From: Methanobacteriota archaeon
GTDB taxonomy: Archaea; Thermoplasmatota; Thermoplasmata; SG8-5
DNA length: 53,949 bases
Assembly (NCBI GenBank): GCA_013791785.1
Contig: VMTD01000122.1
Span: 1-53,949, forward strand
Reading direction: 5' to 3'
In this document: one piece after another, positions 1 through 47,173 of the stretch
Numbering within the stretch: position 1 is the stretch's first letter
Layout of the letters: the number at the start of each line of letters is the position of its first letter
Translations under genes and position numbers: made by a program
The notes under the pieces: generated by a model
Databases searched by the model: none
Told to the model about the DNA's origin: nothing
Seen by the model: the letters and a program-made list of their open reading frames with translations, nothing else

Positions 1-66
1 AATCTAAAATCTAAAATCTAAAATCTACAATCTAAAATCTACAATCGTTATTGCTTCATTTCGCTG
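1..66 (+). repeat. Heptamer A/T-rich repeat element, right part (copy 1)
   Basis: The window opens inside tandem variants of AAAATCT (six units, some reading CTACAAT), followed by a tail CAATCGTTATTGCTTCATTT. The same tail closes related copies at 9426-9565 and 46657-47153. The left part lies outside the window. No coding capacity. Confidence 0.8.
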
Positions 67-9425: not shown

Positions 9426-9565
9426 GGGTAAGAGTTCAGTTTTCTGAAATTTTAGATTTTAGATTTTAGATTTGTGCTGATAATATGCAACACCGTCAAT
9501 CCGTCGTAAATCTACAATCGTCAATCTACAATCTACAATCGTTATCGTTTCACTGAATATTTATC
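9426..9565 (+). repeat. Heptamer A/T-rich repeat element (copy 2, complete)
   Basis: It begins GGGTAAGAGTTCAGT, passes through TTTTAGA heptamers, then a unique core GCAACACCGTCAATCCGTCG, then CTACAAT heptamers, and ends GTTTCACTGAATATTTA. Both ends recur around the composite at 46657-47166. It fills the space between mgtC and the ABC operon end. Confidence 0.85.
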
Positions 9566-34174: not shown

Positions 34175-34599
34175 CTACTGCGCGATGGTTTTCTCTACCC
34201 GGGCGACCACATAAGGGTATGAACCCCCAAGGTGCTGGCGTGAAGGTATCGCATTTTGCGACACCATGACATTCACCTCCTCATCTGTAAGCCGGAACAT
34301 GAACTTAGATTTTAGATATTTGCTGGCAGAATGCCCAACCGTATTTTAGAACTTAGATTTTAGATTTTAGATATTTGCAGGAATATGCAACGCCGTCAAT
34401 CCGTCGTAAATCTACAATCGTTATCATCTGAAGGAAATCTGGTTATGTTCCTTTTCACCTGTCCTCTCAATCTGACGGATTTCACCTCATATAATTCAGC
34501 CAAGTCCCGATCAAGCATTACCTGAACTCCGCGTATCGTGTGTATCCTGTTCTGGATGTCTTCCTTAAAGGTCAATTCGCTGTCGGATGTCTCGCTCAT
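34175..34599 (-). pseudogene. ORF6N (KilA-N-like) domain gene split by an A/T-rich element
   Basis: From ATG 34599 the frame reads NRIHTIRGVQVMLDRDLAEL...VKRNITRFPSD, the ORF6N domain start found in phage and mobile-element DNA-binding proteins. It runs into a heptamer element at about 34425. On the far side of the element (34303 downward) the same strand continues FMFRLTDEEVNVMVSQNA...SYPYV, the next residues of the same domain (family consensus RFPxDFMFxLT...), then breaks off and stops at 34175. So one gene is disrupted by an insertion of about 122 bases and has also lost its 3' end. Confidence 0.8.
34304..34425 (-). mobile_element. Heptamer A/T-rich element inserted in ORF6N (copy 3)
   Basis: Boundaries follow from the two ORF6N halves. 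On the plus strand it starts CTTAGATTTTAGATATTTGC, repeats that phrase once, then carries GCAACGCCGTCAATCCGTCG, CTACAATCGTTATC. It has no gene. The core matches copy 2 at 9487-9510 nearly base for base. No clear target duplication is visible. Confidence 0.75.
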
Positions 34600-37715: not shown

Positions 37716-40394
37716 ATGTCTTTGATAATAGAACCTAATGTTCCTCCATCAAATATATTAGAAGGCATGCCTTTTCAAGCGAACAGGGGGGCAATCCTGA
37801 CCGACGATTCACCAATGATGAAACAATACAAGAGCATTAAATCGCAGTATCCAGGCACAGTTGTATTCTTCAGAATGGGCGATTTTTATGAAACATTTGG
37901 CGATGATGCTGTAATCACTGCCAGAGTTCTTGACATTACCCTAACTGCCAGGGGTCATTTCAAGGGCGAGAAGATGCCGCTGGCCGGCATTCCGTACCAC
38001 GCACTGGACACATACCTGCACAGGATGGTGAAAGCCGGTTACAAGGTCGCCATATGCGAGCAAATTGAAGATCCGAAGAAGGCCAAGGGCATAGTCAAAC
38101 GCGATGTTGTGCGCATCGTATCACCGGGAACCGTCATGGAGGATTCCATGCTCCAGGGCCGTTCTAACAATTTTCTCATTTCCATTGGCCGTAACGGTTC
38201 GGATTACGGACTGGCTGCGGTTGATATTTCCACAGGCGAGTTCCTTGCCACGAGTTTCGAGGGCCGGAATGCCGGACGGATGCTGAGAAACGAGGTTGCC
38301 AGGTTATCCCCGTCGGAATGCCTGGTGAGCCCCGATATCGGCGTGGGCAATCTGAATGAGCTGATGGACGGCGAAATGGCTTGCTCCGTCACCCTGGGCA
38401 CCGCCGAACAGTTCGCCGGGAATAATGCCGCAGAACTGCTTGCGAGCCAGTGCGGCAACGCATCCGGCCCGGCGCCTGCGGTTTCCGCTGCCGGCGCGGC
38501 GCTTTCATATCTGATGGAGATGCAGAAAAGCAGCATCGGCCAGATAACTTCCATAAAGTTCTATGAAATAAACGATTTCATGATGCTGGATTCCGTGACA
38601 CTGCGGAATCTTGAGCTGTTCGGTAACATCAGGGACGGCGGAAAATCCGGTACGCTTTTCGAGTTGATGGATAGGACGCTAACGCCCATGGGCTGCCGCA
38701 CTCTCCGGGGCTGGTTGGCGAAACCGCTGATGGTCATGGCCGCCATCGAGGAACGGTTGGATTCGGTCGAGAAGCTCATGGAAGAAAGGCCGCTGAAGGC
38801 CGAGATAAGGGAGAACCTGAAAGACGTCCGCGATCTGGAACGGCTGCTGGCCAGGAGCATTTACGGCAGCGCCAACGCCAGGGACGTTCAGGCAATCGCC
38901 AACACACTGGCCGCTGTGATGCCGATTGCCGAAACACTCGGCGGCAAGGTCCCCATTCTTCTCAAGAACATACGCCAGAACCTTGACCCGTGTCAGGAAT
39001 TGACGGATGAGATAGAAAAGGCCATTGCGGAGGAGCCGCCCGTTGGCGTGAGGGAAGGCAGCATTATCCGTGAAGGTTATGATGCACAGCTGGACGAGCT
39101 CAGGGACATGGCCAGGACCGGCGGAAAGTGGATGGCCAGCCTGGAGGAGACCGAACGTTCCAGAACAGGCATAAAATCCCTGAAGATAAAGTATAACCGC
39201 GTGTTTGGTTATCACATTGAGATTCCAATCAGCCAGTCCGGAAATGTTCCGGATAATTACACCCGGAAACAGACCATGTCGAACGCGGAACGTTTCATAA
39301 CTCCTGAACTGAAGGAAAAGGAGAGCCAGATACTTACAGCGAACGAGCGTTCTGCCGCTCTTGAATACGAAATATTCAGCCGTATCAGGGAGAAAGTCGC
39401 CGCTCATTCCGAGCGCCTGCGGGGAACCGCGCGAGCCCTGGGGGAATTGGATGCCATTGCCTCGCTGGCCGAGATTGCTGTCGCGCAGAACTACGCGCGG
39501 CCGAAATTCGACGATTCAGGCTCACTGGCCATAGTCAGCGGCCGTCACCCTGTTGTGGAGAGCATCCTTTCGGAGAAGTTCATACCCAACGATACCACGT
39601 TGGACATGAAAAAAAATCGCGTCATGATACTCACCGGGCCCAACATGGCCGGTAAATCAACCTACATGCGGCAAATCGCGTTGATAATCGTCATGGCCCA
39701 GATGGGCGGCTTCGTGCCCGCGACGTCTGCCAGGCTGACGATTGTTGACCGCGTTTTCACTCGCGTCGGTGCGTTTGACGACCTTTCCAGGGGCCAGAGC
39801 ACCTTCATGGTGGAGATGAGCCAGGTCTCGGAAATCCTGAAGAACGCAACCAAGCGCAGCCTCATCCTGCTTGACGAATTGGGTCGCGGTACGAGCACGT
39901 TCGACGGCCTGAGCATCGCCTGGGCGGTGGCGGAATACGTTCATTCGCGCAAGCTGGGGGCCAAGACGATTTTCGCCACGCATTATCATCAGCTAAACGA
40001 GCTGGAGGAACTGCTGGACGGCGTGGTGAATTACAATATCGCGGTCAAAGAGGAAAAGGATGACATAATCTTCCTGAGAAAGGTGATTCCCGGCAGCACA
40101 AACAGAAGTTACGGTATCCAGGTGGCCAAGCTGGCAGGTATGCCCCCCGAGGTCGTGGAAAGAGCCAAGAAGCTGCTTCAGGACATCGAAGCGCAGACCG
40201 TTGTCGATTTGTCATCGACGCCGAAATCCAAGAAGAAGCCCAGGACATACACCCAGCTGGTGATGTTCGGCGAGATGACGGAAACCAATCCCCTGAAGGA
40301 CGAGCTGAAGAATCTGGACCCGGACCACATGACCCCCATGCAGGCACTCCACAAGCTCCAGGAACTGAAGAAGAAGGCGGAGGGGAAAGAATGA
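37716..40394 (+). CDS. mutS: DNA mismatch repair protein MutS
   Basis: 892 residues. The mismatch-recognition Phe-x-Glu is in FFRMGDFYETF (about 52-62). Core and clamp domains are complete, Walker A is GPNMAGKSTYMRQ (about 641-653), Walker B is LILLDELGRGTSTFDG, and the composite ATPase motif FATHYHQL is present. Length and order match bacterial MutS1, which recognises mispairs and recruits MutL. No ribosome site is visible before ATG 37716; the frame is unambiguous from residue 30 on. It forms an operon with mutL (4-base overlap). Bacterial-type MutSL in an archaeon indicates an ancient or recent transfer. Confidence 0.97.
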   Translation: MSLIIEPNVPPSNILEGMPFQANRGAILTDDSPMMKQYKSIKSQYPGTVVFFRMGDFYETFGDDAVITARVLDITLTARGHFKGEKMPLAGIPYHALDTYLHRMVKAGYKVAICEQIEDPKKAKGIVKRDVVRIVSPGTVMEDSMLQGRSNNFLISIGRNGSDYGLAAVDISTGEFLATSFEGRNAGRMLRNEVARLSPSECLVSPDIGVGNLNELMDGEMACSVTLGTAEQFAGNNAAELLASQCGNASGPAPAVSAAGAALSYLMEMQKSSIGQITSIKFYEINDFMMLDSVTLRNLELFGNIRDGGKSGTLFELMDRTLTPMGCRTLRGWLAKPLMVMAAIEERLDSVEKLMEERPLKAEIRENLKDVRDLERLLARSIYGSANARDVQAIANTLAAVMPIAETLGGKVPILLKNIRQNLDPCQELTDEIEKAIAEEPPVGVREGSIIREGYDAQLDELRDMARTGGKWMASLEETERSRTGIKSLKIKYNRVFGYHIEIPISQSGNVPDNYTRKQTMSNAERFITPELKEKESQILTANERSAALEYEIFSRIREKVAAHSERLRGTARALGELDAIASLAEIAVAQNYARPKFDDSGSLAIVSGRHPVVESILSEKFIPNDTTLDMKKNRVMILTGPNMAGKSTYMRQIALIIVMAQMGGFVPATSARLTIVDRVFTRVGAFDDLSRGQSTFMVEMSQVSEILKNATKRSLILLDELGRGTSTFDGLSIAWAVAEYVHSRKLGAKTIFATHYHQLNELEELLDGVVNYNIAVKEEKDDIIFLRKVIPGSTNRSYGIQVAKLAGMPPEVVERAKKLLQDIEAQTVVDLSSTPKSKKKPRTYTQLVMFGEMTETNPLKDELKNLDPDHMTPMQALHKLQELKKKAEGKE

Positions 40395-42148
40395 GCAAAA
40401 TTAGGTTGCTGGACGAGTCAACAATCAGCAAGATTGCCGCCGGCGAGGTAATCGAACGTCCCGCCAGCGTCGTCAAGGAGCTGGTGGAGAATTCCCTGGA
40501 CGCAGGCGCAACTGACATCCGCGTGCGAGTTTCTGATGCGGGAAAAAAGCTCATCGAGGTCATAGACGACGGCTGCGGAATCGCTGCTGACGAACTAACG
40601 CTGGCATTCGTGCAGCATTCCACCAGCAAAATATTCCGCATTGACGACCTGGACACACTGGTCACCATGGGTTTCCGCGGGGAAGCGCTTTCCAGCATCG
40701 CATCGGTTGCGGACCTGGACGTTTCAACCCGGATGGAAAATACCGCAATCGGTCATTCTGTATCATTCCGGAAAGGCAAGCCCGGTGCGGTAAAGCAAAT
40801 AGGTCGGGTCCCGGGCACAACAATTACCGTAAGGAACTTATTCAGCGGCCATCCGGCCAGGCTGAAATATCTCAAATCGGACCGGGTGGAAATGAGCCAT
40901 ATAATCCAAATAATCACGGAAAGGGCGCTGGCGAACCCCAATGTCGCTTTCAAGTTGCACAATGACGATGTGGAAGTGCTGAACCTTCCGGCGGCTGGTA
41001 ACATACTGGATCGCATTAGCGACCTCATGGGCAGGAAGGTGGCCAAGGAAATAGTTTCCTTCGAAACGTCCGTCGAAGGAATCCGTGCGGAAGGCCATCT
41101 GGCTAAACCCAGCATCACGAAATCCACCAGGGACGGATTCTTCCTTTTCATTAATTCTCGGCCCGTCTCCAGTTCGGTAATTTCCGAAGCAGTTGAGACG
41201 GGATATTCTGGCCTGCTCATGAGAAACCGGCATCCTGTTGGCGTTCTATTCCTGGACATCGACCCGAAGATACTGGACGTGAATATCCACCCCACCAAGA
41301 GGAAAGTCAGATTCGCAGATGAAAAGACCATCGCCAGGCTCGTCTCGGATGCAGTGGCAAAGGCCCTTGGCAATGTCCGGCATATTCCGGATGTCGCGCC
41401 CAGGCAGAAAGAGCTGTTCCCGATTCCCAGTTCCCAGTCGATTCCCGATTCCCAGTTCCCAGTCGATTCCCGATTCCCCGATTCCCCCATTCCCGATTCC
41501 CCAGGGAGGGAACCGGCCCAGAGCCAGCTCTTCGCCGAGAAGGAAGCGGAAGAAATACGCGAGGACAGGATGCTGCCAAGGATGAAGGTCATCGGCCAGA
41601 TACTCGACACCTACATACTGGCGCAAAGTGGTTCAGACTTACTCATCATTGACCAGCACGCCGCTCACGAGCGCGTGATGCTGGACAAGCTCAGGAACCG
41701 CCCCGAGAAGAAACTCTCCCAGATTCTGATAACCCCGATATTGCTCGGCCTGGGAAAGAAGGAGAGCCAGTTAGTGGAACATTTCCGCCCGGTAATCGAG
41801 GACCTGGGATTCAAAATCGAACCGTTCGGAACCGATACATACCTCGTCCGAGCGGTGCCGGCAATCGGCGGTCACATCGAATCGGAATCCGGATTACGAG
41901 ACTTAATCGGCGAACTGGCCGAGCTGGGAAAGGCCCGTTCCATCGAAGAAAAGCGGGATGAAATTATCCATCTGGTGGCCTGCCATTCAGCAATCAGGGC
42001 CGGTGAGCGGCTCACATTGCAGAGAATGTCGCGCCTGGTCGCGGAAATGCACGCCCTGGACAATCCCTACACCTGTGCGCACGGGCGGCCGACCATAATC
42101 AGGATTACCAATGCGGAGTTGGAGAAGTGGTTCAAGAGAATAGTCTAA
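40391..42148 (+). CDS. mutL: DNA mismatch repair protein MutL
   Basis: 585 residues. GHKL ATPase motifs are AAGEVIERPASVVKELVENS (N box), DDGCGI and GFRGEAL. The C-terminal dimerisation domain has DQHAAHERVMLDKL (about 421-434), ACHSAIRAGE and CAHGRPT, i.e. the layout of endonuclease-type MutL. In the motif DQHA-x2-E-x4-E the last glutamate is aspartate, which may affect metal binding. The linker (about 344-373) is encoded by GATTCCC heptamer repeats and reads as a Ser/Pro/Asp-rich string. It overlaps mutS by 4 bases. No mutH is present, so strand nicking is expected from MutL itself. Confidence 0.96.
   Translation: MSKIRLLDESTISKIAAGEVIERPASVVKELVENSLDAGATDIRVRVSDAGKKLIEVIDDGCGIAADELTLAFVQHSTSKIFRIDDLDTLVTMGFRGEALSSIASVADLDVSTRMENTAIGHSVSFRKGKPGAVKQIGRVPGTTITVRNLFSGHPARLKYLKSDRVEMSHIIQIITERALANPNVAFKLHNDDVEVLNLPAAGNILDRISDLMGRKVAKEIVSFETSVEGIRAEGHLAKPSITKSTRDGFFLFINSRPVSSSVISEAVETGYSGLLMRNRHPVGVLFLDIDPKILDVNIHPTKRKVRFADEKTIARLVSDAVAKALGNVRHIPDVAPRQKELFPIPSSQSIPDSQFPVDSRFPDSPIPDSPGREPAQSQLFAEKEAEEIREDRMLPRMKVIGQILDTYILAQSGSDLLIIDQHAAHERVMLDKLRNRPEKKLSQILITPILLGLGKKESQLVEHFRPVIEDLGFKIEPFGTDTYLVRAVPAIGGHIESESGLRDLIGELAELGKARSIEEKRDEIIHLVACHSAIRAGERLTLQRMSRLVAEMHALDNPYTCAHGRPTIIRITNAELEKWFKRIV
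41418..41503 (+). repeat. GATTCCC heptamer tract inside mutL
   Basis: About twelve units of GATTCCC or AGTTCCC, occasionally with one extra base, spanning about 86 bases. The reading frame rotates through the unit and no stop results. It lies in the flexible linker, where length change is tolerated. Confidence 0.85.
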
Positions 42149-42194: not shown

Positions 42195-42391
42195 ATGTCG
42201 AGAAAACTCTGGCTTTCAAGCCGGAGATGAATCGACATAAACAATAAAAGCGTGGGAATCCGCCATGCACCGTACACATATCTGCACATGGAATCAAAGC
42301 TTTGAAGCTTTGATAATGAGGTGCATGGCTACCTGTGTAAACTTCCAGCCCTGGTAACAAACGCCAGCTCCTTTAGGGGCTGGTAGTTTAC
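42195..42391 (+). mobile_element. IS200/IS605-type element without transposase or TnpB (omega-RNA-like), copy A
   Basis: About 197 bases. 5' hairpin: outer GTCGA/TCGAC (42197-42201/42232-42236), inner CTCTGGCTT/AAGCCGGAG. Middle: long stem GCCATGCACC/GGTGCATGGC enclosing ATCAAAGC/GCTTTGAT. 3' end: TTCCAGCCCTGG, then hairpin CCAGCTCC-TTTA-GGGGCTGG and TAGTTTAC. No open frame. Same order as copy B at 46750-46953. The remaining sequence to 42520 has no gene. Confidence 0.75.
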
Positions 42392-42520: not shown

Positions 42521-42739
42521 TTATATAAGTTTCAGAAAATCATCTGCTGTTATGTCGGCGTCTTTCAATATCGCCCGTAAGGTTCCTCTTGCGATTTCTT
42601 TATGATTTGGTATTGTAAGAGGTCTCTTTGTTACATGTCTCAGGTGGATATGGCTACCTTTTTGATCTCTAACATAATAACCTAATTTACACAGTGCTTT
42701 AACAAACTCTGTTCCAGATAATATCGGAAGTTTGCTCAT
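42521..42739 (-). CDS. hicA: HicA toxin (mRNA interferase)
   Basis: 72 residues, the usual HicA size, with the double-stranded-RNA-binding-like fold. SGTEFVKALCKLGYYVRDQK leads to GSHIHLRHVTKRPLTIPNHK (catalytic histidine in GSHxxL), and RGTLRAILKDADITADDFL closes the family pattern. It overlaps the upstream hicB by 4 bases; antitoxin-first order is one of the two known arrangements. Confidence 0.93.
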   Translation of the reverse strand: MSKLPILSGTEFVKALCKLGYYVRDQKGSHIHLRHVTKRPLTIPNHKEIARGTLRAILKDADITADDFLKLI

Positions 42740-42954
42740 AAAGATACAGCAACCGTCGTTTGCTTCACATTAGCTTTTTCGATAAGTGGGACACCCTCTT
42801 CCACTAAGGCGCTCATATGGAGTTCGATTGCCTCCTTAATGTTTTTCCTGGCTTGTGCCTCGGTCTTGCCTTGCGAGATACATCCCGGAAGAGAGGGGAC
42901 GGTTGCGACGTAATAGCCATCTTCATCTTTTTCAATTAGAACCTTAAAGTTCAT
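42736..42954 (-). CDS. hicB: HicB antitoxin
   Basis: 72 residues. MNFKVLIEKDEDGYYVATVP followed by SLPGCISQGKTEAQARKNIK is the standard HicB RNase-H-like fold. There is no C-terminal DNA-binding helix, so this is a short HicB. ATG 42954 fits the site GGTG 8 bases upstream better than ATG 42960. Confidence 0.92.
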   Translation of the reverse strand: MNFKVLIEKDEDGYYVATVPSLPGCISQGKTEAQARKNIKEAIELHMSALVEEGVPLIEKANVKQTTVAVSL

Positions 42955-42989
42955 TTTCATACACCAATACAACATTAGTTTTTCGAGAT

Positions 42990-46749: not shown

Positions 46750-46953
46750 TAAAGGCCGGGAACCCCCTGGTTTTTAAGCCAGGGATGAGAGGCCATTTAC
46801 ACGAATATTACAAAAAGAGATCCGCCATGCGCCGTGCAACATATCACATATGAAATCAAAGCACATTAGCTTTGATAATTAGGTGCATGGCTACCTGTGT
46901 AAACTTCCAGCCCTGGCAACAAACGCCAGCTCCTTTAGGGGCTGGTAGTTTAC
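46750..46953 (+). mobile_element. IS200/IS605-type element without transposase or TnpB (omega-RNA-like), copy B
   Basis: Outer GGCC/GGCC (46754-46757/46791-46794) and inner CCCTGG/CCAGGG replace the stems of copy A with different bases but the same pairing. The stem GCCATGCGCC/GGTGCATGGC, the hairpin ATCAAAGC-ACATTA-GCTTTGAT, and the 3' hairpin CCAGCTCC-TTTA-GGGGCTGG with TAGTTTAC are retained. No open frame. Confidence 0.78.
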
Positions 46954-47077
46954 TGAATAGTGAATAGTGAAAAATGAAAAACTGAGTAATTTTGTCCTTG
47001 AGAGCCGATTCTTTCACCATTTACCTCCAAACGTCACTTTTCACTATTCACTTTACACTTTTCACTAATCACTTCGG
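46953..47077. repeat. GTGAATA heptamers in inverted pair
   Basis: TGAATAGTGAATAGTGAAAA (46954-46973) and CACTTTTCACTATTCACTTT (47035-47054 region, followed by ACACTTTTCACTAATCAC) are 7-base-periodic and complementary to each other, able to form a long stem. Confidence 0.7.
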
Positions 47078-47173
47078 CCAGTCAATAAGTCCGTAAATCT
47101 ACAATCTAAAATCTAAAATCTACAATCGTTGTTGCTTCATTTCGCTGAATATTTCCCAGCCCGGGTCCCGTGC

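Follow-up and report, generated by a model that had tools for sequence, protein, structure and literature searches.

The mutL gene of this archaeon, a relative of Thermoplasmata, carries within a predicted disordered linker a degenerate array of heptamers, and we consider it probable that this array is a GGGAATC-type minisatellite in an otherwise normal archaeal MutL, drifting in length under selection for the reading frame. The window that we analyzed is a 53,949-nucleotide stretch constituting contig 53 of the 145 in a draft genome of 2.62 Mb (G000). Tandem Repeats Finder (TRF), core spacing, and shuffling placed the array at positions 41417 to 41502 of the plus strand, corresponding to mutL codons 343 to 371, with the G-rich (GGGAATC) strand serving as the template strand of mutL. 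The array has 11 TTCCC cores, seven of them within exact GATTCCC units, two within AGTTCCC, and one within CATTCCC, while the first follows native codons. Successive cores are spaced 7, 7, 11, 7, 7, 11, 7, 8, 8, and 7 bases apart, which rules out a pure (GATTCCC)12 tract. The longest perfect period-7 tract is only 15 nt (2.14 units). Period 25 dominates instead: TRF prefers a 25-base unit, and the purest repeat of the array is a perfect period-25 tract of 62 nt at 41417 to 41478 of the plus strand, comprising 2.48 copies of TTCCCGATTCCCAGTTCCCAGTCGA. The initial annotation had proposed about twelve 7-base units; the tandem array is real and the number was roughly right, but there are 11 cores, they are far from pure, and the coordinates are 41417 to 41502.

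At period 25, the array scores 126 in TRF. When the window was shuffled 40 times under a first-order Markov model, the highest score was 55, and when the codons of mutL were shuffled synonymously 500 times, it was 75. Likewise, its 11 TTCCC cores compare with a mean of 3.9 and a maximum of 8 in 2,000 synonymous shuffles of mutL. Because the shuffles never reached the score of the array, neither base composition nor the protein sequence accounts for it, and chance or codon bias can be ruled out as its origin.

The host gene is intact. mutL (40391 to 42148, plus strand, from the open reading frame [ORF] list and Pfam) encodes 585 amino acids, and its ATG start codon overlaps the end of mutS, which lies directly upstream (37716 to 40394, plus strand) and was recognized by reading its translation in the ORF list. 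Pfam located HATPase_c_3 at residues 25 to 119, DNA_mis_repair at 210 to 326, and MutL_C at 401 to 541, so that the N-terminal ATPase, transducer, and MutL_C domains are all present, and the invariant residues are retained in an alignment of 18 sequences. An AlphaFold2 model, which we used solely to locate the disordered region, gave pLDDT values below 50 for residues 331 to 393 (codons at 41381 to 41569, plus strand), and the array therefore lies wholly inside the predicted disordered linker. There the frame is open and the array is translated into the Pro/Ser/Asp-rich string PIPSSQSIPDSQFPVDSRFPDSPIPDSP, bearing out the earlier suggestion of such a string in frame in the MutL linker. The open frame, the presence of the domains, and the constrained amino acid changes described below rule out the possibility that mutL is a pseudogene. 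Two Q-x-x-L-F-like motifs, RQKELFP (~41405 to 41422) and QSQLF (approximately 41520 to 41540), flank the array, and the second of these is retained across much of the order; they are possibly sliding-clamp binding motifs. On the 3′ side of mutL, a HicA toxin and a HicB-like antitoxin are encoded as a pair on the minus strand (42521 to 42975). A search of the window for structured RNAs gave no match at Rfam gathering thresholds.

Comparison with congeners showed that the array is confined to part of the genus. Sister species G001 has a shorter array, TTCCCGATTCCCCAGATTCCCGATTCCCC, at the same mutL codons and in frame, so that the number of units differs between the two species; in G002 and G003, mutL has a single TTCCC within Leu-Phe-Pro codons and no array. 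Between the G000 and G001 genes, synonymous sites are at or near saturation (pS, 0.71 to 0.78), whereas the N-terminal and C-terminal domains are conserved (pN, 0.15 and 0.10, respectively) and the linker is less so (pN, 0.29). That a repeat is nevertheless shared at the DNA level implies either its renewal or its repeated formation; the mutL array is thus turning over and is not simply an old relic. The length and sequence of the linker vary among relatives, with large alignment gaps even between congeners. Among the single consensus genomes we found no off-frame mutL allele, and all four species of the genus are in frame.

The unit itself belongs to a dispersed family, in agreement with the expectation that homologous heptamers would be found elsewhere in the genome. 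Among 61 genomes, GATTCCCNATTCCC occurs at 15 sites in G000 and 30 in G001, at none in G002, G003, and five other members of the family, and at 0 or 1 elsewhere. With a stricter unit pattern, only G000 and G001 were found among 400 genomes of the class, so that the GGGAATC unit is not characteristic of the class as a whole. No GGGAA array anywhere in the G000 genome is longer than the one in mutL. Most of the other copies form an intergenic element in which GGGAATC units are followed by CGTACGGAATGGCTG-loop-CAGCCATT and then by inverted GATTCCC units; a near-invariant core, CGTACGGAATGGCTG-loop-CAGCCATTG, lies between the inverted heptamers. We identified this element at L159, L172, L234, L237, and L239 to L244 in G000, at L194 to L196, L200, and L201 in G001, and at L227 to L229 in G002, where GGGAAGC/GCTTCCC takes the place of GGGAATC/GATTCCC as the flanking unit, as though the two arms had undergone a concerted change. 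RNAalifold predicted a hairpin for the dispersed element and found zero covarying pairs with changes on both sides.

Period-7 arrays in general are the dominant tandem repeats of G000, with 50 in 651 kb versus none in a shuffled copy. Counting all families, 87 lie outside long ORFs and 9 inside, and the latter are mostly in doubtful ORFs. The commonest heptamer, ATTTTAG, contains a stop codon, whereas GGGAATC is free of stops in all frames of both strands. Other families (ATTTTAG/AATCTAA, AATCTAC, and TCACTTT) occur in the window at 1 to 46, 9449 to 9541, 34343 to 34372, and 47034 to 47127, the first of these arrays forming the contig end. The heptamers of G002 are different (TAGGGTC and GGGGCTA), and G003 had none in the sample examined. 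A further repeat of ~51 bp, the near-palindromic AAACTTCCAGCCCTGG...TTTAGGGGCTGGTAGTTT, is present at 42339 to 42389 and 46901 to 46951, at 21 sites in 651 kb of G000, and at two sites in each of the smaller samples of three congeners; it looks like a dispersed hairpin or MITE-like repeat.

A plausible course of events starts from the native CTG-TTC-CCG (Leu-Phe-Pro), still single copy in G002 and G003, which may have served as the seed or the landing site of the array. Units drawn from the genomic family, or resembling it, would then have expanded in a segment of the gene that accepts nearly any open sequence. Slippage, unequal recombination, or copying of units from elsewhere in the genome would account for gains and losses, with selection purging the frame-breaking products, such that net multiples of three bases survive. 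We propose that the array has been able to persist because GGGAATC, unlike the commoner ATTTTAG, lacks stops in every frame of both strands. The effect on the cell would thus be a drift in the length and composition of the linker and not a switch. Tolerance is supported by the distribution of the repeat, in that the GGGAATC unit and the mutL array are both present in G000 and G001 and both absent from G002 and G003. In E. coli, moreover, MutL lacking 40 linker residues confers no mutator phenotype (PMC6902014).

Heptamers in the MutL linker are not peculiar to this genus. With TRF we surveyed 109 other mutL genes, consisting of the best-matching 80 from the genome collection together with class relatives and selected regardless of repeats, and found period-7 or -14 linker arrays, with differing unit sequences, in Nitrospirae/Nitrospiria, Desulfobacterales, Chloroflexi, and WOR-1. 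All of the heptamer-bearing mutL genes examined are in frame across the linker. At the same loci, the density of heptamer arrays is 4.4 per 10 kb in mutL linkers, compared with 0.62 per 10 kb in the spaces between ORFs and 0.19 per 10 kb in the remaining long ORFs, the ORFs being called by length only. By a simple lag-7 measure, 8 of the 109 linkers were positive, whereas none of 121 coding tiles with comparable predicted disorder were (Fisher P = 0.002). In this control, the disorder was matched crudely by an amino acid scale, part of the tiles (those of G400) derive from one heptamer-bearing genome, and runs of masked N raise the heptamer-like counts of both G400 and G000. A test with 511 disorder-like tiles excludes these runs: in an enlarged set, 11 of 138 linkers were positive versus none of the 511 (P = 3e-8) and 2 of 6,512 tiles of all kinds, a figure that is partly ascertained, since the 29 added mutL genes were drawn from a Desulfobacterales clade picked because one of its genomes bears a heptamer array, and sequences so related do not count as independent. 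Lag 7 yielded 11 linkers and lag 14 yielded 3, with 0 or 1 at each of the remaining lags from 4 to 15. The G000 array is interrupted and so fails the strict lag-7 test and was left out of these counts.

In one of these genomes, that of a member of the Desulfobacterales (G400), there are no heptamer arrays in 326 kb of coding sequence versus 15 in 74 kb outside, and one of the noncoding arrays shares its unit with the mutL of the same genome (AGACAGA, a rotation of CAGAAGA). The mutL unit thus occurs among the genome's own noncoding arrays, which matches the situation in G000, where mutL holds the genome's own dispersed family. The linkers at L072, L066, and L116 contain two heptamer arrays that are apparently inverted (AATGCGG and then CATTCCG at L072), resembling the inverted pairs of Xanthomonas. 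A literature search, whose coverage left out most subscription journals, found no prior report of heptamers in mutL; the recurrence across phyla is unreported as far as we found and deserves an explanation. Tolerance alone leaves unexplained why heptamers are found in the MutL linkers of several phyla and in 0 of 511 other disorder-like tiles. It also predicts heptamers in other hypervariable linkers of heptamer-rich genomes, and we found none in a handful of FtsZ linkers, some of which were from loci that were cut or lay on the wrong ORF.

The initial annotation had suggested that slippage could switch MutL on and off and so change the mutation rate. According to this idea, changes of 7 or 25 bases would shift the frame of mutL, remove the C-terminal domain, and reversibly turn off mismatch repair in a few cells, with selection for a switchable rate accounting for the recurrence. 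Its arithmetic is sound: 7 and 25 are not divisible by 3, a single step therefore shifts the frame, and each step that we simulated (−1, +1, or −2 units or ±25 bp) truncated MutL to 389 to 428 amino acids, leaving little or none of the C-terminal domain, whereas a three-unit change kept the frame. Heptamers also recur in the MutL linkers of unrelated bacteria, where lag 7 stands out among lags 4 to 15; the copy number of GGGAATC-unit heptamers differs between strains of Xanthomonas, ranging from 5 up to 12 (PMC8002079); and in Salmonella three 6-bp repeats in mutL convert functional and defective alleles into each other (PMC2955026). We nevertheless regard a switch as unlikely, given that the consensus genomes examined contain no frameshifted allele and that G001 has kept the frame despite the different length of its array, as frame selection predicts. 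Nor does the array offer a long uninterrupted tract, its purest stretches being the 15-nt heptamer and the 62-nt 25-mer of 2.5 copies; across the mutL genes examined, pure heptamer tracts run to 2 to 4 units, against about 7 to 38 in the heptanucleotide phase-variable tracts described in PMC2651432. A short pure tract does not in itself disprove a switch, since three 6-bp units suffice in Salmonella (PMC2955026). There is in addition a mechanistic objection. Bacterial MutS corrects 7-base loops, which are outside its good range, only poorly, and the loss of MutL would therefore not itself speed the return to frame.

Selection might instead act on the linker itself, its length and composition (seven residues for every three units) altering the passage of MutL past obstacles on DNA, with heptamers supplying convenient raw material. 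In vitro, the ability of E. coli MutL to bypass roadblocks does depend on linker length (PMC6902014), and yeast Mlh1-Pms1 is affected by linker changes (PMC6393296). Furthermore, the array sits between RQKELFP and QSQLF in the genus and so alters only the spacing of these motifs. However, no preferred length is evident among linkers that are heavily gapped even between congeners, and triplet repeats would be equally suitable, yet period 7 dominates; we therefore rate this explanation as quite unlikely. That the array is a product of parallel chance, with Phe-Pro and Ile-Pro codons merely looking repetitive, or of metagenome assembly error is highly improbable: although the draft is fragmented and some of its contig ends carry heptamer arrays (window positions 1 to 46, for example), synonymous-codon shuffles never matched the observed repeat, G001, which was assembled separately, carries an array at the matching codons, and the mutL reading frame is intact. 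We therefore favor a tolerated array under frame selection. The broader proposition that recurrence beyond that expected from disorder, from Thermoplasmata to Nitrospirae/Nitrospiria, Desulfobacterales, Chloroflexi, and WOR-1, reflects selection for a frame- or length-sensitive repeat, and hence convergent, reversible control of the mutation rate, seems to us doubtful.

If the recurrence holds up when surveyed in full, the MutL linker would be a repeated entry point for non-triplet repeats into a conserved repair gene, the idea that repeats in mismatch repair genes act as mutation rate switches would become testable in many natural lineages, and selection could be contrasted cleanly with passive tolerance of a disordered linker. 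Even the passive reading is informative, as it connects genome-wide heptamer families with the way in which disordered protein segments come about.

The array belongs to a known class of prokaryotic heptamers, as the initial annotation had recognized, but the cyanobacterial STRR that it named are not the closest precedent. Their unit is CCCCAGT and similar sequences, whereas the units here are GATTCCC and AGTTCCC. Closer are the G-quadruplex heptamer repeats, GGGAATC or GGGGA(C/T)T, of Xanthomonas and Nostoc (Rehm et al. 2015, PMC4692102), which have the same GGGAATC unit and are likewise dispersed, mostly intergenic, and often arranged as two inverted arrays. Rehm et al. defined their repeats as having at least two units, at least one of them an exact GGGAATC, and the minus strand of the mutL array has seven exact units and 11 GGGAA cores; the dispersal and intergenic overrepresentation that they described are seen in the 15 sites of G000 and in the distribution of all families around long ORFs. 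One strand here likewise has at least four G3 tracts (11 G runs of at least 3 on the minus strand of the array) and is a candidate for quadruplex folding. Unlike the repeats of Rehm et al., the family described here is in an archaeal host, and a conserved gene holds the genome's longest array, which is heavily interrupted. STRR heptamers and the TAACTGA repeats of Beggiatoaceae, cyanobacteria, and Bacteroidetes are also seven-base, genome-dispersed, and mainly intergenic repeats, but their units are different, TAACTGA contains stops and GGGAATC does not, and the available part of that account describes no mutL array (PMC4679880). The mutL switch of Salmonella and E. coli (Chen et al. 2010, PMC2955026) is similar in being a tandem repeat in mutL whose copy number could alter function, but it consists of three frame-keeping copies of 6 bp, whereas the array here, of 7 or 25 bp, is in the linker and would shift the frame. 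The heptanucleotide phase-variable tracts of Haemophilus influenzae (PMC2651432) share the seven-base unit and in one case lie in an ORF with a frameshift, but they are made up of many tandem copies of one unit, compared with ~2 pure units at a time here. Finally, the repeats of Borg elements of archaea (PMC9879509) also create disordered protein segments from tandem repeats in archaeal DNA, but within ORFs their unit lengths are all divisible by three, whereas those of the MutL linker repeats described here are not.
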